Source: Planctomycetota bacterium
Lineage (GTDB): Bacteria > Planctomycetota > Planctomycetia > Planctomycetales > Planctomycetaceae
DNA: 64,000 nucleotides
Assembly: GCA_016872645.1 (NCBI GenBank)
Contig: VGZH01000020.1
Coordinates: 1-64,000 of the forward strand
Direction of reading: 5' to 3'
A model generated the notes under the pieces. It was not told where the DNA came from. It saw only the letters and a program-made list of their open reading frames with translations, and made no database searches. The position numbers and the translations under genes were made by a program. Positions 42,858 to 58,205 of the stretch are shown piece by piece. The first letter of the stretch is position 1. Each line of letters opens with the position of its first letter.

Positions 42858-44711
42858 ATGACTCAAGATCATCACGACATCGACCCCAACACGCTGGAAC
42901 GAGACGACACGATCATCTCCACGGCGCTCAATTGGTCGTTGATCGTGTTGTTTTTTCTGGGAGCGGTCGGTGGTACCGTAGCATTTTTGTATCTTCAAAA
43001 ACCGGTGGCAGTTGTCATTCCTGCGCCGCCCCTCCCCCCCCCTCCACCAGCTCGCGTGAAGCTGGAAACTCCGGAGATTCTCTTCACCGACATCACCGTT
43101 GAGTCTGGCGTCAAGTTTGTCCACGAGAACGGAGCGTATGGCGACAAGCTGTTGCCAGAAACAATGGGCAGCGGCTGCGCGTTCTGCGACTACGACGGCG
43201 ACGGCGATCAAGATATTGTCTTCGTCAACTCCTGCCGCTGGCCGTGGGATCCGCGTGACATCGCCAAAGATCGGCCGCAGCCGACGCAGGCAGTGTATCG
43301 CAACGACGGACAGTGCCGATTCGTCGACGTAACGAAGGAGGTCGGACTCGACGTAACCTTCTACGGCATGGGTGTCGCCTGCGGAGACTACGACAACGAC
43401 GGCGATACGGACTTGTTTTTCACGGCGGTCGGCCGAAATCGGCTGTTTCGCAACGACGGCGGCAAATTTGTCGACGTGACCAGTGACGCCGGGATTGGAG
43501 GTGTCGATTCGCAGTGGAGTACTGGTGCCGGCTGGTTCGACTACGACAACGACGGCGATCTCGACCTGTTTGTCGCCAACTACATTGAATGGACCAAGGA
43601 GAACGACCTCTCGCAAAAGTTCACGCTCATCGGGGGTGGTCGCGGCTATGGGCGGCCACAGCCGTTTCATGGCGTCTTCCCGTACCTCTATCGCAACGAC
43701 GGCGAAGGAAAGTTCGCCGACGTTTCCAAAGAAGTTGGCATCCAAGTCTTGAATGCTGCGTCAAACGAACCAACGGCGAAGTCATTAGGCATCACCTTCG
43801 CTGACCTGGATGCCGATGGTCAAATGGACGTCGTGATCGCCAACGACACCGTGCAGAATTTTCTGCTGCACAACCTTGGCGGCACATTTGAAGAGATCGG
43901 GGCACAGTCTGGAGTGGCGTTCGACTTGGATGGCAACGCACGCGGAGCGATGGGCATCGATACGGCCTGGTTTCGCAACAGTGCCGCGCTGGGCATTGCA
44001 ATCGGAAATTTCTCGAACGAGATGACCGCCCTGTATGTGACCAAGTCGAACGATCTGCAATTTCGCGACGAAGCGGTCTCAAACGGATTGGGGCCGGGCT
44101 CGCGGCTGGAACTGAAATTCGGAGTGCTCTTCGCCGACCTGGATCTCGATAGCCGCCCAGACTTGTTCAGCGCGAATGGACACTTAGAAATCGAAATCAA
44201 CAAGGTGCAGGAGAGTCAGCACTACGAGCAGTCGCCGCATTTGTTTTGGAATTGCGGCCCCAAGCATGGGACAGAGTTCGAGCTGGTTCTTTCCGCCAAG
44301 TGCGGCAGCGATTTCATGAAGCCCAGCGTTGGTCGCGGCGCGGCGTATGCCGATATCGACGGAGACGGAGACCTCGACTTGCTGATCGCCAATAGCGGGC
44401 AGGCTCCGCGGTTGCTCCGCAATGATCAAAAATCTGGCCACCATTGGGCCCGGTTTCATTTGACTGGCAACGGAAAATCCAACCGCGATGCAATCGGAGC
44501 TGTCGTTGAAGTTCGCTGTGGGGACGTGACACAACGCCGCCTGGTCATGCCAACGCGCAGCTATCTCTCGCAGGTTGAGCTGCCGGTGACGTTTGGTCTG
44601 GGCAAGGCCGAGCAGATCGACTCCGTCCGCATCCGCTGGCCGGATGGCTCGACGCAAGAACTGGAGGTTCTCAAAGTCGATCAGACGCATCGAGTGCGAC
44701 AGTCGGATTGA
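42858..44711 (+). CDS. Membrane-anchored CRTAC1-like FG-GAP/ASPIC-UnbV protein
   Basis: A 617-residue protein with a single N-terminal anchor (WSLIVLFFLGAVGGTVAFLY, about 26-45), a proline linker (PPLPPPPPARVK), then repeated calcium-type FG-GAP/VCBS motifs: CDYDGDGDQDIVFVNS, GDYDNDGDTDLFFTAVG, FDYDNDGDLDLFVANY, ADLDADGQMDVVIAND, ADIDGDGDLDLLIANSG. The C-terminus has the ASPIC/UnbV domain (ending RIRWPDGSTQELEV). It probably works outside the cell in adhesion or Ca-dependent binding. GAGGGAC precedes the ATG. Confidence 0.88.
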   Translation: MTQDHHDIDPNTLERDDTIISTALNWSLIVLFFLGAVGGTVAFLYLQKPVAVVIPAPPLPPPPPARVKLETPEILFTDITVESGVKFVHENGAYGDKLLPETMGSGCAFCDYDGDGDQDIVFVNSCRWPWDPRDIAKDRPQPTQAVYRNDGQCRFVDVTKEVGLDVTFYGMGVACGDYDNDGDTDLFFTAVGRNRLFRNDGGKFVDVTSDAGIGGVDSQWSTGAGWFDYDNDGDLDLFVANYIEWTKENDLSQKFTLIGGGRGYGRPQPFHGVFPYLYRNDGEGKFADVSKEVGIQVLNAASNEPTAKSLGITFADLDADGQMDVVIANDTVQNFLLHNLGGTFEEIGAQSGVAFDLDGNARGAMGIDTAWFRNSAALGIAIGNFSNEMTALYVTKSNDLQFRDEAVSNGLGPGSRLELKFGVLFADLDLDSRPDLFSANGHLEIEINKVQESQHYEQSPHLFWNCGPKHGTEFELVLSAKCGSDFMKPSVGRGAAYADIDGDGDLDLLIANSGQAPRLLRNDQKSGHHWARFHLTGNGKSNRDAIGAVVEVRCGDVTQRRLVMPTRSYLSQVELPVTFGLGKAEQIDSVRIRWPDGSTQELEVLKVDQTHRVRQSD

Positions 44712-44717
44712 CCGCGA

Positions 44718-46952
44718 TCACAGGCGGAAGTGGAACGTCGACTTGATGTATCGCCAGATCCAGTCCCACGTGGAACGATGACCGACCGAAAAACGGGCGC
44801 GGCCACGCATTCCGGATCGAAGCAGCGGGATGTCCTCTTCAAGCAGGACGGTCGTTTGGTACGCGGCACTGACGAGCCGTTCGCGTCCTTGTTCATCGGT
44901 CTTGGTCGGAATTTCGCCACCGAGCTTGTTGGACAACAGCTGGGGAACGAATTCCAAGTTGCGGTCGGAAATCTTTTCGACCTTTCCGACGTAGGTCTTG
45001 GCCGGCAAGCTGTCCAACTTCAATTCAACGTCGCTACCGATGTCGATGTCATTGCGGTCTTTTTGATCCACCAGCAATGTGGCTTGGAATTTGTGGTCCG
45101 GCGCGATGCTGCAAACGTGAGTCCGCTCCTCGAGAAAACTGTCGCGGTTTCTGGGCTGCAACGGAGTGCCGTGCCAAGCTGCGAGCTGCAGTCGGCTTTC
45201 GTCGGCCCTGGGTTCGGGTATTGACGGCGGAGCGATGACTTTACCGTTACACGGAGCATCGATCTTCAACTGCGCAAGCTGATGCTCGTATTCGGCGAGT
45301 TGCTCTCTGACAGTCCTCAGCCTCTCTTTGGCAACCTCTTCCTCGGCGATCGCACCGGTGGCTCGATGCACGCGAATCTCCGCGTGGATCACGCGGAGTT
45401 GGACTTCCATCTCCCGCTTTTTGTCGTCCTTTTCGGGATTCTCTAGATCGACGAGCGGATCTCCTTCTTGGACAAGCTGTCCCTCGGCGACGTATTGCTC
45501 GCGCAGGAAGCCGGGCGTGGTCGAATAGACGTGCTGCACGTCGTGTGGTTCGACAATGAACATCGCCTCGACGTGCCAGGGAATCGGAACCAAAAGTCCC
45601 ACTCCAAGAAGGGTCACGAGTACCGTGCAGGTCGCAATCATTTTGGGACGGCTCATGGGTTCGATCCTTGGGGCAGTGATTATCTGATAGAGGTTGTAGA
45701 ACATCGAGTAAATGATGCCTGCGAATGAAAACACAGCCATCGTGATCCCGAGGCTTTGCAAGTCGTACGGCTTCAGCACGGTATAGAAAAACGTCAAAAT
45801 CGCTGCCATCACGAAGATGCGATAAATGTTCGCCGTGACTGCGAAGACAATGAACCAAAACTTGCCGGTCTCAGGCATGAACGGGTCCGGCTTCGCCTCG
45901 ATCCCCAGGCAGTACCACGCGAAGCTCTCACGCATCAGCTTGTCAGCCTTGGGACGCATGTTTGGAATTTCGAGGAAGTCGGCCAGCATGTAGTAGCCGT
46001 CGAATCGCATCAACGGATTGGCGTTGAAAATGACTGTCGTAATCGAAGTCACAAAAAAGATGTTCAAGCACAGGTGATGCATCAAGCCGGTTTCGGTATA
46101 GGCCCAGAAGAAGATCGCAATGCCGGAGATAATCGCTTCGATGTACATGCCGGCGGCGCCGATCATGATCCGCTGCCACTTATTTTTGAGCGTCCAACTG
46201 TCGGACACATCGCAGTACAAGCAGGGGCTGAAGCAGAGCAGCATCACCCCCATTTCATGGCATTCACCGCCGTAGACTTTGCAGCTCAGCCCGTGGCCGA
46301 ATTCGTGGCAGATCTTGCAAACCGCCAACGTGAGCCACAGATACAGCATGTTGGGCCAGCCGAAGAACTGCTGGAACTCCGGAATTTGATCGGTGAAGTC
46401 GTTGAACCGCGTTCCCAGCATCACCCACGAAGCGATGCAGAACAGCGTCATCAAGATCAGGCCCAACGGCTTGAACAGCCACCCGCAGAGCGGTTGCAGA
46501 AACGTCAGCGTGCGTTCCGGATCCCAACCAGGCAGCCGCAAGTAAAGCAGGCTGCGGAGCGTCTGCCACACCTTTTTGCGGAAGTTGTCTTTTTTCTGCT
46601 TCAGCAGCGCGGCCCCCTGCCCCATGCGATTGCTGTACACGAGACCTTTCTCGTGCAAGTCGGTGATCAGGTGCTGAATGTCGCTCAACTGCAGACGCAC
46701 GGTGGGCAGAATGCGGAGCAATTCGTCGCGGACTTCTTCCAGGCTCCGTTTGCCGTCGAGCAGGTACAAAACCTGGTGTTGTTCGGTTTGCAAACGGTAG
46801 TACTTCAATCCAACCGGCTCTTTGACGACCCAGTAGGCAACCCCCTGATACTCGATGCGTTCGATCCGCAAGTCCGGCCGCACCTGTAACGGAATCGGCC
46901 GTCGATTGGACGGAGTCAGCGACGACAGAGCGGGGTTACCGGCAATCGACAT
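44718..46952 (-). CDS. M50-type membrane metalloprotease fused to a HlyD-like domain
   Basis: A 744-residue chimera. Residues about 25-115 form a winged-helix-like PqqD-type domain (YYRLQTEQHQVLYLLDGKRS). Residues 150-460 are a multi-helix membrane domain with the zinc motif HEFGHG (216-221) and a downstream ligand Asp318 in NPLMRFDGYY, as in site-2 protease/M50 peptidases. Residues 470-744 are a periplasmic lipoyl/HlyD-type barrel (FLREQYVAEGQLVQEGDPLV, APCNGKVIAPP). Relatives are found near peptide-export systems. Here no ABC transporter is adjacent; the HlyD adaptor 47016-48038 is its only partner, 63 bp upstream. Confidence 0.85.
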   Translation of the reverse strand: MSIAGNPALSSLTPSNRRPIPLQVRPDLRIERIEYQGVAYWVVKEPVGLKYYRLQTEQHQVLYLLDGKRSLEEVRDELLRILPTVRLQLSDIQHLITDLHEKGLVYSNRMGQGAALLKQKKDNFRKKVWQTLRSLLYLRLPGWDPERTLTFLQPLCGWLFKPLGLILMTLFCIASWVMLGTRFNDFTDQIPEFQQFFGWPNMLYLWLTLAVCKICHEFGHGLSCKVYGGECHEMGVMLLCFSPCLYCDVSDSWTLKNKWQRIMIGAAGMYIEAIISGIAIFFWAYTETGLMHHLCLNIFFVTSITTVIFNANPLMRFDGYYMLADFLEIPNMRPKADKLMRESFAWYCLGIEAKPDPFMPETGKFWFIVFAVTANIYRIFVMAAILTFFYTVLKPYDLQSLGITMAVFSFAGIIYSMFYNLYQIITAPRIEPMSRPKMIATCTVLVTLLGVGLLVPIPWHVEAMFIVEPHDVQHVYSTTPGFLREQYVAEGQLVQEGDPLVDLENPEKDDKKREMEVQLRVIHAEIRVHRATGAIAEEEVAKERLRTVREQLAEYEHQLAQLKIDAPCNGKVIAPPSIPEPRADESRLQLAAWHGTPLQPRNRDSFLEERTHVCSIAPDHKFQATLLVDQKDRNDIDIGSDVELKLDSLPAKTYVGKVEKISDRNLEFVPQLLSNKLGGEIPTKTDEQGRERLVSAAYQTTVLLEEDIPLLRSGMRGRARFSVGHRSTWDWIWRYIKSTFHFRL

Positions 46953-47015
46953 GAGCGGTTAACTTCAGAGATATCGAACAGCTGGGAACGAAGGATGACG
47001 ACGGACGACCGTTCA

Positions 47016-48038
47016 TCATTTCTCACCACCGGCCTGTTTGATGCCGGACGCAACGGGTGCCTTCTTGGCAGTACCAGCGGCTCGGCGACCATGTTTGATC
47101 GTCATCTTGGCGTACAAGCCTTCGATCAGTTTCTCGTCAGGATTCTGGACCTCGGCCCAAACACGAGCACGGTGAGTCACGTTGCTGACCGTTGGGTCGA
47201 TGGAATACATCTTTCCGTGAAACACTTCCTTTTCAATTTCCAGGTTTCGATCCGGGAAATCGATCTGCACTTCCACGGGGTCGCCCCGTTTGACGCTCCA
47301 CAGATCTTCCACCGGCAGGTACCCCTCGACTTTGACGATTCGCGTGCTGACGAGTTCCAGAATCGGAGTCCCCTGCGTGACTGCCTCTCCCTTGTGTTTG
47401 ATCACTTTTCGGACTTTGCCGTCGAACGGAGCTTCAATCCTGCCGGCCTTCAATTGAGCCGCGGCCTTCTTCATTTCGAGTCTGGCAACCACTTGTTCAT
47501 GCTCCGCCTGTTTGCCCTGTAACTGAGCTTTGATGTAGTTCAGCCGGCCACGCTCGACCTCGGTCGAAGTGATCGAACCCGGGACTCTGCGATTGCTTTC
47601 GAGCATCTTTTCCAGTTCGACTTTGGCCACATCCGCCGAGGCCTCCGCGAACTGTTTGTTGACATCGTTCTCGGCCTTTTCTTTGGAGATTTCAAAGATC
47701 GCCATCAGCTCGTCATCTTTCAGGAAAACGATCTCTTGATCCTTACGGACGTCGTCACCTTCCCTCGGTTCCACAAACGAGATGAGCCCGGGCCGATCAC
47801 TTGCCAAGGTGACACTGTGCAGCAGTTTGACCGAGCATTTCGGTAAGGTGATCTGTCCGGGGATCGAGCGTTCGACTTGCTCTTCCGGATCCGAATCATC
47901 GAGTTGCGGATTCGTGTTGGCCCGCAATCGCGGAGTCTGATTCTGCCAAGCCTGCGTGAAATTATTGCCGGCGACGAACAAGCCCAGCGACAGCGCTACA
48001 GCCGTCAGCCAAGGCCACTTGGAAGAAAAAACACGCAT
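47016..48038 (-). CDS. HlyD-family periplasmic adaptor
   Basis: A 340-residue membrane-fusion-type protein, AAGGAG 6 nt before ATG 48038, with an N-terminal signal or anchor (WPWLTAVALSLGLFVAGNNF). The layout is lipoyl half-motif (GLISFVEPREGDDVRKDQEI), alpha-hairpin coiled coil (about 115-200, ELEKMLESNRR through EHEQVVARLEMKKAAAQL), second lipoyl half (GRIEAPFDGKVRKVIKHKGE) and beta-barrel. It probably acts with the M50/HlyD chimera downstream. No RND or ABC pump is in the window. Confidence 0.88.
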   Translation of the reverse strand: MRVFSSKWPWLTAVALSLGLFVAGNNFTQAWQNQTPRLRANTNPQLDDSDPEEQVERSIPGQITLPKCSVKLLHSVTLASDRPGLISFVEPREGDDVRKDQEIVFLKDDELMAIFEISKEKAENDVNKQFAEASADVAKVELEKMLESNRRVPGSITSTEVERGRLNYIKAQLQGKQAEHEQVVARLEMKKAAAQLKAGRIEAPFDGKVRKVIKHKGEAVTQGTPILELVSTRIVKVEGYLPVEDLWSVKRGDPVEVQIDFPDRNLEIEKEVFHGKMYSIDPTVSNVTHRARVWAEVQNPDEKLIEGLYAKMTIKHGRRAAGTAKKAPVASGIKQAGGEK

Positions 48039-55082: not shown

Positions 55083-58000
55083 TCACTTGATCGAATTCAG
55101 ATACGCCAGTAGGTCGGCCATCGCGGCTTGATCGAGTTGTTTCTCCAAGCCTTCGGGCATGAACGACAGGCCGGTACTCTTAAGTTCGTCGATGTTGATC
55201 CGCAGCACGGTCTCGGTGGTGTTGTCCGCTTTGCGGAGCGTCAGGCTGTTGGCTGTTTCGGTGGCAACCATGCCGGTCAGAGTACGGCCGCTGTCGAGCT
55301 GTACGACGTAGCTCAGGAACTGCGGCTTCACCTCGCGGTTCGGGTCGAGAATGTTGAGCAGAACTGCCGCCGTCCCTCGGTCCCGAATCGCGTTGAGGTC
55401 CGCTCCGATCGACTCCCCGAAGTTTTCCAGCTTGTGACAGGCCGCGCAGTGCTTGCGGAAGTGCGCGCGTCCACGATCGACATCCCCTTTCAGTTCGAGC
55501 GACTTCTGATACGCATCGACGACTTCCTGCCGCCGAGCGAGCGTTGCGCCGGCAAACAGCTTCGTCGTCCGCTCGCGAATTGCCGTCTCTTTGTGCTGAC
55601 GCAGCAGCACGATGCGTGCGGGATCGAGGTCCGCTCGCGCGATCGTCTGTTTCTCGACGGCATCGAGGAACGCGGTGATCCAGGTGGCTCGCGTGAACAG
55701 AGTCTCAACCGAGGAGGCTCGCAACTGCGGCGTTTGCGACGGCCACGCGGCGAGGATCAAGCTCGGCACATCGGCCGCATCGAACCGAGCCAGCGTTTCG
55801 AGCGTCGCCGCCTGCACCGGCTGCGGCTGCTTCGACTGCAGCAACTCGGCAAACAGCTCTTTCGTTTCGGCCAGTGATGCGGACGAAAGAGTCCGCACGG
55901 CAGCCGCTCGATCGGCTGGAGCTTTCGCTTCATCGCGTGCCGCAACGATCGCATCGCGAACGAGGCCCGCAAGGATCTCGCGAGCCTTCCCTGCCGTCGC
56001 GCCTGCCAACATCTCCTTGGCGGCCGGCTGTTTGCTGACAAGGTTGCGGACCAGCTCTTCCACCAGCGATTTGTCCTTCGCGTCCGCCGCCAACAGATCG
56101 AGCTGCCGAATCATCGCGGCCAGTTCCGCCTTGGAATTCGCCGCTCCGATTTGGACGGCAACAGTGTTGAGCATCGCTCGGACATGCGACTGTGACCGGT
56201 TTTTAGAATCGCTCAACAACGCCGCCAGGAATTCGCCGCGGCGTTGGCCGATCGAGCTCAGAATCGCCAACTGCATCCACGGGTCCGCACCGTCTCGCGC
56301 GGCGAGCTTGCCCAGAACGCGAGTCGCTTCGTCGCCAGCAAAGCCTCCCAGCGTGAACGCGGCTTGATAGCGAACCAGCAAGTCCGCATCTGCAGTTCGT
56401 GCCATCACCGAGTCGCGGACGTCGGCGTGATCAGCAAACAATTCGGCAATTCGCAGCGTGTGCAAAACCTCTTCTGGCGAGACGGCAGGCGTCAGCCCCC
56501 GGACGTCATCTGTCGTTCGGGACTGATCCGGGGGCTGACGTCCGTCGGCTCGCTGGAGTGCAGCGACAATCAATTTCGGCTCCAGCGCCGACAAGCCGTA
56601 CAACGAATACAGCGCCATAACTCGAGCCAGCGGCGACTTCGAGTTCGCAGCCAATTCGCGCAGCGGCGCAATCGCAGCTCTGTCTTGGCGTTGATAGATC
56701 AGTCGCGAAGCGGTGTCGCGATGCCAGCCGTTCGGGTGCTCGAAGAGTTTGACGAGTTCCGTCGTCGGCAGATCGCCGAGTCGCGTCGCGGGCTTGAATC
56801 GATAACCGTCGGGGGCGATGCGGTAGATGCGACCCTTGTCCGCTCCGGCGCTCGTGTCCATGTGCTTGAGGATCGCCGGGGCGAGGAATGCGGCTCCTTC
56901 GATCAGCTCGCGATACATGTCGATGACGTACAACGTGCCGTCGGGAGCGTTCGTGAATTGCACCGGTCGGAACCAGTTGTCGGTCGAGGCAAGAAACTCG
57001 GCATCGAGGTCCGCTCGATGCGCGGTCAGGGCGATGCCATTGCGTTCCAGCCGCGCGCGGTAGACGAGATTGTTCGCGACCTCGCCGACGAAGAGTTGAC
57101 CGCGATACTCGGCTGGCCAGGCATCGCCGCGATAGACCGTGATGCCGGTCGCTCCGGTGAAGAAGCCGGACGGCGTACCCCCTTCGTCCGATCCGGGAAT
57201 GACTCCCGACTTTCGCAGCCGAGTTCGCAGCACCCGCCACGGCTCAACCGCGCTAGTCCGCATCAGCTTCGTGAATTTTCCATCCGGAGCGATGTTGATC
57301 GCCGCCGCCGGAGCCTGCAGGTACGGATTCCGCGCGAGATACCGCCCGTCGTACATCACGAGATGGACCGGCTCACTGTTACCGCAGACGAACGCTCGCA
57401 AGTTCCAGTCGTCGAGACTCATGCCATGCTGACCGCCGCCGCTCGTCGCGGCGATCGTCATCGCGCGCGGCTCGAGCAAAAGATGCTGTCCCCGCACGTT
57501 GATCGGCTTGGCTGCCGCCTGTCCGCCCCCGTCTCTCTTCGAGAGAGGGCTGGGGTGAGGGTCCGCATTGGCAGCACTCTCGACCGGCATCACCTCGCCT
57601 CCATCCAACCCACACGGGATGTGGAATCGATTGTCGATCCGCCAGCGAAACGAATTGAGCATCCCCTCGCCCGCTTTGTCCTGCCCAAATCCGGTGAAGA
57701 GTTTTTGCCGCACATCCGCCTTACCGTCACCGTCAGTGTCTTTGCAAAACAAGATGTCCGGTGCGACACCGACTAGAATGCCGCCGTCCCAACAGGCGAC
57801 CGCCGTGGGGTAGTCGAGATCACCGACGTAGACCGTGGCCTTGTCGAATCGTCCATCGCCGTCGAGATCCTCCAACATCTTGACGTCGCCACGACCGTGC
57901 GGCTTCGGGCTGGCGTACTGGTTGTATTCGGGCAGCTCAACAACGAACGCTCGGCCGAACTCATCGAATTCCATCGCCATCGGCGAGCGAATCAATGGCT

Positions 58001-58205
58001 CAGCCGCGACGATCTCGGCATGAAACCCGGCTTTGAGTTTGATCGCCTTGAGGGACTCCTCTGGCGACTTCGGCGCAATCCTCGGAAGCTCAGCCGAGTA
58101 GTCTTTGTCGGCGCTGTCTTTGTCTTGAGCATCGCCAAGCGAGAGCCATGCGCCGGTCAAACAAACCGAGAACAACACGCTCAACAGCCAAGGGGTTTGT
58201 TTCAT
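55083..58205 (-). CDS. PVC-type heme-binding CxxCH protein
   Basis: A 1040-residue secreted protein (signal MKQTPWLLSVLFSVCLTGAW). The N-terminal sorbosone-dehydrogenase-like propeller includes MAMEFDEFGRAFVVELPEYN and EDLDGDGRFDKATVY; HEAT-like helices follow, then a cytochrome c domain with HCAACHKLENFG (about 920-931) and the terminal region FMPEGLEKQLDQAAMADLL. It carries two in-frame palindromic insertions (about residues 215-227 and 556-572). It lies between DUF1501 and the 2-hydroxyacid oxidase and is probably co-transcribed with the latter. It is a paralogue of 32776-35829. Confidence 0.9.
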   Translation of the reverse strand: MKQTPWLLSVLFSVCLTGAWLSLGDAQDKDSADKDYSAELPRIAPKSPEESLKAIKLKAGFHAEIVAAEPLIRSPMAMEFDEFGRAFVVELPEYNQYASPKPHGRGDVKMLEDLDGDGRFDKATVYVGDLDYPTAVACWDGGILVGVAPDILFCKDTDGDGKADVRQKLFTGFGQDKAGEGMLNSFRWRIDNRFHIPCGLDGGEVMPVESAANADPHPSPLSKRDGGGQAAAKPINVRGQHLLLEPRAMTIAATSGGGQHGMSLDDWNLRAFVCGNSEPVHLVMYDGRYLARNPYLQAPAAAINIAPDGKFTKLMRTSAVEPWRVLRTRLRKSGVIPGSDEGGTPSGFFTGATGITVYRGDAWPAEYRGQLFVGEVANNLVYRARLERNGIALTAHRADLDAEFLASTDNWFRPVQFTNAPDGTLYVIDMYRELIEGAAFLAPAILKHMDTSAGADKGRIYRIAPDGYRFKPATRLGDLPTTELVKLFEHPNGWHRDTASRLIYQRQDRAAIAPLRELAANSKSPLARVMALYSLYGLSALEPKLIVAALQRADGRQPPDQSRTTDDVRGLTPAVSPEEVLHTLRIAELFADHADVRDSVMARTADADLLVRYQAAFTLGGFAGDEATRVLGKLAARDGADPWMQLAILSSIGQRRGEFLAALLSDSKNRSQSHVRAMLNTVAVQIGAANSKAELAAMIRQLDLLAADAKDKSLVEELVRNLVSKQPAAKEMLAGATAGKAREILAGLVRDAIVAARDEAKAPADRAAAVRTLSSASLAETKELFAELLQSKQPQPVQAATLETLARFDAADVPSLILAAWPSQTPQLRASSVETLFTRATWITAFLDAVEKQTIARADLDPARIVLLRQHKETAIRERTTKLFAGATLARRQEVVDAYQKSLELKGDVDRGRAHFRKHCAACHKLENFGESIGADLNAIRDRGTAAVLLNILDPNREVKPQFLSYVVQLDSGRTLTGMVATETANSLTLRKADNTTETVLRINIDELKSTGLSFMPEGLEKQLDQAAMADLLAYLNSIK
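56490..56540. repeat. In-frame palindromic insertion, 51 bp
   Basis: CGTCAGCCCCCGGA (56490-56503) and its perfect reverse complement (56527-56540) enclose 23 bp. The length is 17 codons, within the PVC heme gene, encoding part of ADGRQPPDQSRTTDDVRGL. Confidence 0.8.
57526..57561. repeat. In-frame repeat of the CCCTCACCCCAGCCCTCTC type
   Basis: A 36-bp stretch around the palindrome CTCTCTTCGAGAGAG (57533-57547), read on the minus strand as DPHPSPLSKRDGGG. This sequence type is common in bacterial spacers. It lies within the propeller part of the PVC heme gene. Confidence 0.75.

Follow-up and report, generated by a model that had tools for sequence, protein, structure and literature searches.

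Results

The protease-adaptor chimera and its companion

We analyzed a stretch of 64,000 nucleotides (hereafter the window) from a Planctomycetota bacterium of the Planctomycetaceae, which covers positions 1–64,000 of contig VGZH01000020.1 in the assembly GCA_016872645.1 (213 contigs, 99.99% complete). The subject of this study is a pair of genes on the reverse strand. The first gene (47016–48038, (-)) encodes P0002, a separate periplasmic adaptor of the HlyD/RND type (340 aa), and the second, which follows after a gap of 63 bp, is an open reading frame (ORF; 44718–46952, (-)) for the 744-aa protein P0001. The latter unites a PqqD-like recognition element of ribosomally synthesized and post-translationally modified peptides (RiPP recognition element or RRE), an M50 protease, and an HlyD-type adaptor in one chain. 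Both the three-part chimera and the separate adaptor gene upstream had been foreseen in a prediction made from the DNA letters alone (the original prediction). We regard the pair as probably forming the core, in the inner membrane and the periplasm, of a leader-directed exporter for large surface or secreted proteins; in this genome, the exporter exists in a dispersed form.

Within the window's family, 115 of 120 genomes contain chimera homologues, and phylum-wide 68 of the 294 planctomycete genomes sampled do, often with multiple copies. The named relatives belong to metagenome-assembled genomes (MAGs) of Planctomycetaceae, such as Gimesia, Planctomicrobium, Schlesneria, and Fuerstiella, and the window genome itself carries a second chimera-adaptor pair (753 and 376 aa) on contig C36. 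Genes 92–95% identical to the window protein are found in lake MAGs whose records are titled Candidatus Kuenenia stuttgartiensis, and these titles look mislabelled.

The N-terminal domain of P0001 (residues ~15–110; 46623–46910, (-)) is, as modeled, an RRE/PqqD-like domain of the leader-binding type. As the result list of a fold search with the whole P0001 model (predicted local distance difference test [pLDDT] of 80.7, predicted template modeling score [pTM] of 0.56) was filled by adaptor matches and did not reach this domain, we folded it by itself with AlphaFold2 using 28 aligned sequences (pLDDT of 84.4, pTM of 0.72). The resultant model has a three-stranded beta sheet and the winged-helix fold of RRE. 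The best solved matches were the lasso-peptide leader-binding proteins TfuB1 (6jx3; Z of 9.5, root-mean-square deviation [rmsd] of 3.0, 84 residues) and TbiB1 (5v1u; Z of 8.9), followed by TigE (Z of 8.2), PqqD (5sxy; Z of 7.7), and PbtF (Z of 7.2), where values below 8 may be background according to the tool's own note. A few winged-helix proteins other than RRE scored similarly (e.g., a Rickettsia methyltransferase with a Z of 8.7). Foldseek placed the same group at the top with an E-value of ~0.005 and gave no match at E ≤ 0.001. Independently, a family profile retrieved the RRE protein TfuB1 (E of 6e-4) and PqqD (E of 0.0068) from PDB, with matches that extend over the whole domain. Pfam PqqD found no match in P0001 itself at E ≤ 0.01 and matched 26 of 63 diverse relatives. 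These fold and profile matches agree with the original prediction, in which a PqqD-like domain had been proposed.

The membrane core of P0001 (residues ~195–330; 45963–46370, (-)) bears both hallmarks of the M50/site-2 proteases, namely HExxH and N-P-x(4)-D-G. The two motifs are intact and can be read directly as HEFGH (residues 216–220; 46293–46307, (-)) and NPLMRFDGY (residues 312–320; 45993–46019, (-); also seen in the alignment). The core was superimposed on an RseP orthologue (7w6y; Z of 11.2, rmsd of 3.2, 132 aligned residues) and SpoIVFB (8vjl; Z of 10.5, rmsd of 4.2, 136 aligned residues). Peptidase_M50 (PF02163) scored 26.2 bits on P0001 alone against the cut-off of 27.2, and 36.2 bits when the frame neighbours were included; the same model matched 61 of the 63 relatives. 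All 63 were matched by the intramembrane metalloprotease model of the daptide systems (NF041824), which covers the N-terminal domain and the protease. Among the 111 distinct calls of M50-HlyD genes that encode no fewer than 600 aa, 110 kept HExxH, the loss of which in relatives had been named beforehand as evidence against the proposed device; the sole miss was a gene call cut short. The NPxxxxDG-type motif was detected by a regular expression in 107 of the 111, the others being cut or differing at letters beside the invariant ones. Across 69 diverse aligned sequences, including four proteobacterial plasmid copies, H216, E217, H220, N310, P313, and D318 were invariant.

The C-terminal portion of P0001 (residues ~455–735; 44748–45590, (-)) is a periplasmic adaptor part of the MacA/EmrA/HlyD type, which matched MacA (9qgy_G) with a Z of 16.1 over 220 residues (rmsd of 5.5). 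HlyD_3 exceeded its cut-off at residues 604–663, and Pfam HlyD_D23 fell just below its own. P0002 is an ordinary HlyD/RND-type adaptor, as recognized by Pfam and by TIGR01730 (100.5 bits against the cut-off of 94.9).

No ABC or RND pump was found among the ten proteins typed at 40.5–58.2 kb of the window, the pair included, as had been noted in the original prediction. Two genes in this region, which encode a PVC-type heme-binding protein (55083–58205, (-)) and an ASPIC/UnbV FG-GAP protein (42858–44711, (+)), are seemingly unrelated to the pair. In five close relatives, a CorA-like membrane protein (218–267 aa) is encoded divergently beside the adaptor and chimera genes; this is not the case in the window.

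Partner genes and the SecA_DEAD module

We called 82 planctomycete M50-HlyD loci and counted the partners within five genes of the chimera in 81 of them, as one had no usable anchor. The recurrent partners were HlyD adaptors (59), GAF-HlyD proteins (46), SecA-like ATPases (25), DUF3467 proteins (14), and TolC (12), and a protein of at least 1000 aa was present at 26 loci. Immediately upstream on the same strand, an HlyD cluster was found in 43 of the 81 loci and GAF-HlyD in 26. The SecA-like ATPases are 590–690 aa in length, and the two tested comprise the SecA_DEAD, preprotein-binding, and P-loop domains with no match to SecA_SW or SEC-C. A complete run of TolC, HlyD, DUF3467, GAF-HlyD, M50-HlyD, and SecA-like genes was found in a Desulfovibrio-labelled MAG.

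This gene set has been described as a module of SecA_DEAD, M50-HlyD, HlyD, and GAF-HlyD, sometimes with TolC (Kamneva, Poudel, and Ward, 2015; PMC4452313). In the parts of that paper considered here, the hosts of the secondary SecA_DEAD/type I-like locus are Planctomycetes, Verrucomicrobia, and Proteobacteria, the module parts are allowed to reside elsewhere in a genome, SecA_DEAD is proposed to be the motor and the M50 protein the pore, and the biological role is termed completely unknown (PMC4452313). The paper also lists an operon of this kind in Methylobacterium extorquens AM1 (META1p2399–2402). The window pair belongs to this module. A SecA-like protein 67% identical to the query and with the domain composition given above (SecA_DEAD, PP_bind, and P-loop but no SecA_SW or SEC-C) is encoded in the window genome on contig C43 (29184–31043). 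A GAF-HlyD homologue (52% identical), in which Pfam detects HlyD but no GAF at E ≤ 0.001, resides on C83 and is one of three matches genome-wide. DUF3467 matches were found on C45 and C69.

The original prediction had proposed a stand-alone cleavage-and-export device. Its suggestion of a device that both cleaves and exports, with no ABC pump involved, stood, but the stand-alone nature did not, because the relatives sit together with SecA-like, GAF-HlyD, DUF3467, and TolC genes, all of which except TolC (not sought there) were found elsewhere in the window genome.

The 2015 proposal also provides the strongest rival to our reading, in which the M50 protein serves mainly as a transmembrane pore of a type I-like system energized by SecA_DEAD and its zinc site is not a leader peptidase. 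That view was argued from the domain content and transmembrane helices (PMC4452313, in the parts considered). In contrast, both HExxH and NPxxxxDG are invariant in the 69 diverse sequences, and the nearest curated models are those of RiPP proteases that process leaders. A pore alone would not require the protease motifs, and we regard the pore explanation as unlikely.

Large proteins with an N-terminal leader

Large ORFs in several planctomycete operons open with a LEPR motif. In this leader type, an N-terminal basic stretch is followed by (L/F)E(P/D/S/N/A)RxLL(S/D/N)(A/G). The curated LEPR-XLL model (NF012209) matched 26 of the 294 phylum genomes, and the chimera was found in 25 of these 26 versus 43 of the other 268 (p = 5e-17; Fisher's tests here take related genomes as independent, except for the test at the level of taxonomic families). 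At the latter level, the chimera was present in 30 families, which include all 15 with LEPR-XLL, whereas the 62 families without the chimera had no LEPR-XLL (p = 2e-9). A LEPR-XLL match lay on the same contig as a chimera and within 10 kb of it in 6 of the 25 genomes, against 0.58 such pairs expected under uniform placement.

We built a wider leader model, A1, from 28 leaders. A1 matched 96 of the 120 genomes of the window's family, namely 93 of the 106 that encode a SecA-like protein and 3 of the 14 that do not (p = 5.5e-7), where absence was judged from best E-values in the housekeeping range (~1e-115 to 1e-125); the test is not fully independent because some of the 28 leaders come from the tested genomes. 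Isolated SecA-like genes have a leader ORF no farther than 2 kb away in five genomes and at ~8.6 kb in another; four of these loci were read. In one genome (G016), a leader protein of 2838 aa with cadherin/Ig repeats is encoded directly downstream of a chimera 53% identical to that of the window. Altogether, we newly propose a likely substrate class for the system, namely large and giant proteins that start with a LEPR-type leader.

These findings bear on a second rival, a RiPP-type maturation and export unit for a short precursor peptide (YydH/LiaK- or daptide-like). The combination of an RRE domain with an M50 protease speaks for it, and the best NCBIfam models for P0001 are daptide_HExxH and YydH/LiaK. 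Nevertheless, both scores are below the curated cut-offs (176.6 versus 300 bits and 36.6 versus 225 bits, respectively), and the large genes linked to the chimera have products that are hundreds to thousands of residues long. Conserved short-peptide neighbours, which the original prediction had suggested seeking in other planctomycetes, gave way to large and giant leader proteins: in the clustering of the 82 neighbourhoods, no short gene recurred except for the DUF3467 family. ORFs of 20–130 aa at 44.6–48.3 kb of the window are weakly coding, the best score being 11.2 for an ORF antisense to the long gene of the pair. We thus consider a short-peptide unit very improbable.

Giant proteins on proteobacterial plasmids

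Of 78 places in 75 matching records, 20 plasmid regions were chosen for spread rather than randomly, and one species was represented twice. The upstream gene is annotated in 15 regions, and in 14 of them a same-strand gene of 4.2–48.7 kb was present directly upstream of the operon. In four of the other five regions, an open frame of 2435–3359 codons is found at this place, and one of these frames faces long competing antisense frames. Among the annotated giants, 12 of 14 have a LEPR-type N-terminus: the records of three already give the name LEPR-XLL, seven were detected by a regular expression, and two were recognized by eye (LEPRVVYDA in Burkholderia and FEPRVLLSAD in Pseudosulfitobacter). 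The motif takes the form of LE(P/A/S)RxxFD(A/G)A in Azospirillum, Niveispirillum, Variovorax, Kosakonia, and Citrobacter, by which the DUF4347, Ig-like, and tandem-95 giants can be joined to the LEPR-XLL group. In seven regions of Azospirillum, Variovorax, Niveispirillum, and Kosakonia, giants of these three kinds share LE(P/A)RxxFD(A/G)A, which resembles the LEPR-XLL leader closely enough to look identical in kind.

A version without SecA was found on an enterobacterial plasmid typed as IncHI1B/IncP (L248, 9665–11797 and upstream; another region, L265, is Citrobacter freundii pB18196_2). The order of genes there is a 13.4-kb Ig-like gene with the leader LESRQLFDGA, TolC, HlyD, HlyD, and M50-HlyD with an intact HELGH. 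The matching plasmid records also include 18 of Escherichia coli and 8 of Citrobacter. The Ig-like protein RSP of the IncHI plasmid R27 was considered as experimental support but discarded: the type IV ATPase TrhC is required for its export, and HlyD and TolC are unmentioned in the parts of the two sources considered (PMC6764697, PMC8730810). A Vibrio protein of 8000 aa with RTX appears in the portion considered of the LEPR-XLL literature (PMC10868602).

The plasmid giants directly upstream, together with operons that unite the chimera with TolC, two or three membrane fusion proteins, and a SecA-like ATPase, speak against a third rival, which we consider very improbable, namely that P0001 is an envelope stress or signaling protease with an adaptor-like sensor domain and an indirect link to large proteins, a view that draws on the resemblance of the M50 core to RseP and SpoIVFB and on the GAF domains in one partner.

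Candidate clients in the window genome

Six A1 matches were obtained in the window genome at E ≤ 0.0911, versus 0.09 expected. One of them is in a 75-codon frame, that on C76 was unplaced, and the rest are near the starts of ORFs; an extra leader ORF was found beside one of the matches, and a weaker match was on C70. Pfam detected RTX calcium-binding repeats in all four leader ORFs checked (10, 12, 12, and 17 stretches). An ORF on C93 (L293, 196–4623, (-)) encodes 1475 aa, in which a cyclophilin domain and 12 RTX stretches are combined with an N-terminus that resembles the leader. RTX-repeat proteins are typical clients of exporters, and the clients in the window genome are likely RTX calcium-repeat proteins.

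A dedicated ABC exporter, which had been named in advance as evidence against the proposed device, was not found. The whole window genome encodes three ABC_membrane proteins, one of which is over the cut-off of a CphA/cyanophycin-associated model and two of which are closest to MsbA but below its cut-off; none of the three reaches the cut-offs of the type I models HlyB, LssB, and PrtD.

Discussion

A proposed leader-directed route for large proteins

We propose that the exporter would work as follows. The substrate, of which the sequence and genomic linkage were observed, would carry an N-terminal basic stretch and a LEPR-type leader. The RRE domain of the chimera, as judged from its modeled fold, may bind this leader in the way RRE domains bind RiPP leaders. 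The truncated SecA-like ATPase encoded elsewhere, which is associated with the chimera by neighbourhood and co-occurrence, may power the passage of the chain through the inner membrane. From there, a bridge to a TolC channel would be formed by the HlyD parts of the chimera, P0002, and GAF-HlyD, as their adaptor folds and neighbours suggest. Finally, the HExxH site, whose catalytic residues are invariant and which is akin to the leader proteases of RiPP pathways, would remove the leader, and the mature protein would be released.

Several observations weigh against this reading. The parts are spread over several contigs of the window genome, and no leader protein adjoins the pair; NF012209 finds no LEPR-XLL there at E ≤ 0.01, and the A1 matches are individually weak (E of 0.01–0.09). 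Across the phylum, 43 of the 68 genomes with M50-HlyD have no LEPR-XLL match at E ≤ 0.01, and one genome (G277) possesses LEPR-XLL without M50-HlyD. In the window's family, 13 of the 106 genomes with a SecA-like protein have no leader match, and 3 of the 14 without it have one. Among the plasmids, Magnetospirillum has no giant upstream gene (the annotated gene is 1.5 kb), Tistrella has no long open frame upstream of the operon, and two of the 14 giants (Alisedimentitalea and Phyllobacterium), of which the N-termini were read, are without the motif. No SecA-like gene resides beside the beta- and gammaproteobacterial or Azospirillum versions examined, and the SecA-less proteobacterial operons need another motor.

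In a bolder reading, to which we give roughly even chances, the system is a secretion class of its own rather than a variant of type I: the chimera would read the leader in the manner of RiPP enzymes, the SecA-like motor (or a motor encoded elsewhere, in the case of the beta- and gammaproteobacterial plasmids) would thread the chain, and intramembrane cleavage would free proteins of up to ~16,000 residues. LEPR-XLL and LEPRxxFDAA would then be one export signal common to planctomycetes and proteobacteria.

The module and the LEPR-XLL model have been known separately. As far as the open-access literature was searched, the link between the two is apparently new, as are the RRE fold of the chimera and the unified leader. 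That literature yielded nothing on fusions of peptidase M50 and HlyD or on M50 with PqqD in planctomycetes, and no link between LEPR and the module, the latter without a search that paired LEPR with SecA, RRE, or HlyD. The reading proposed here offers a testable class of clients for the SecA_DEAD/HlyD/M50 module, of which the role was called completely unknown in the parts considered (PMC4452313), and a testable function for the LEPR-XLL motif, on which the sources searched yielded none. If the leader-directed exporter is true, it would connect the leader recognition familiar from small peptide natural products with the secretion of bacterial proteins that are among the largest, and it would show how RTX proteins could be secreted by planctomycetes that have no recognizable type I ABC exporter.

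Comparison with known systems

The system examined here shares SecA_DEAD, Peptidase_M50 with HlyD, HlyD/biotin-lipoyl, GAF-HlyD, sometimes OEP, and the lack of an ABC transporter with the module of Kamneva, Poudel, and Ward (2015), and the window genome has the M50 and HlyD protein, the separate adaptor, and, on another contig, the secondary SecA_DEAD. Unlike in the 2015 loci, the window pair is apart from the SecA-like and GAF-HlyD genes. The paper names no substrate, a term search detects neither LEPR nor DUF3467 in it, and an RRE domain does not come up in the portion considered.

Type I secretion systems (HlyB/HlyD/TolC and LapBCE) resemble the chimera system in the HlyD-type adaptors, TolC in the loci of relatives, and the RTX- or adhesin-like clients. 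Their clients carry a C-terminal signal. In contrast, the chimera system has an N-terminal leader, a protease-adaptor fusion, and no ABC exporter. With no recognizable type I ABC exporter, it lacks the defining feature of type I secretion; the machine may nonetheless work in a similar way.

The daptide and YydH/LiaK proteases belong to the same M50 class of HExxH zinc proteases, but the chimera scores below their curated cut-offs, is fused to an export adaptor, and is linked to large proteins. The large proteins bear the same N-terminal motif as NCBIfam LEPR-XLL (NF012209), although that curated model is silent in the window genome, where A1 matches. Finally, the N-terminal domain of P0001 is alike in fold and profile to the RRE domains of PqqD, TfuB1, and TbiB1, and the P0001 version is distinguished by its fusion to a membrane protease and an adaptor.

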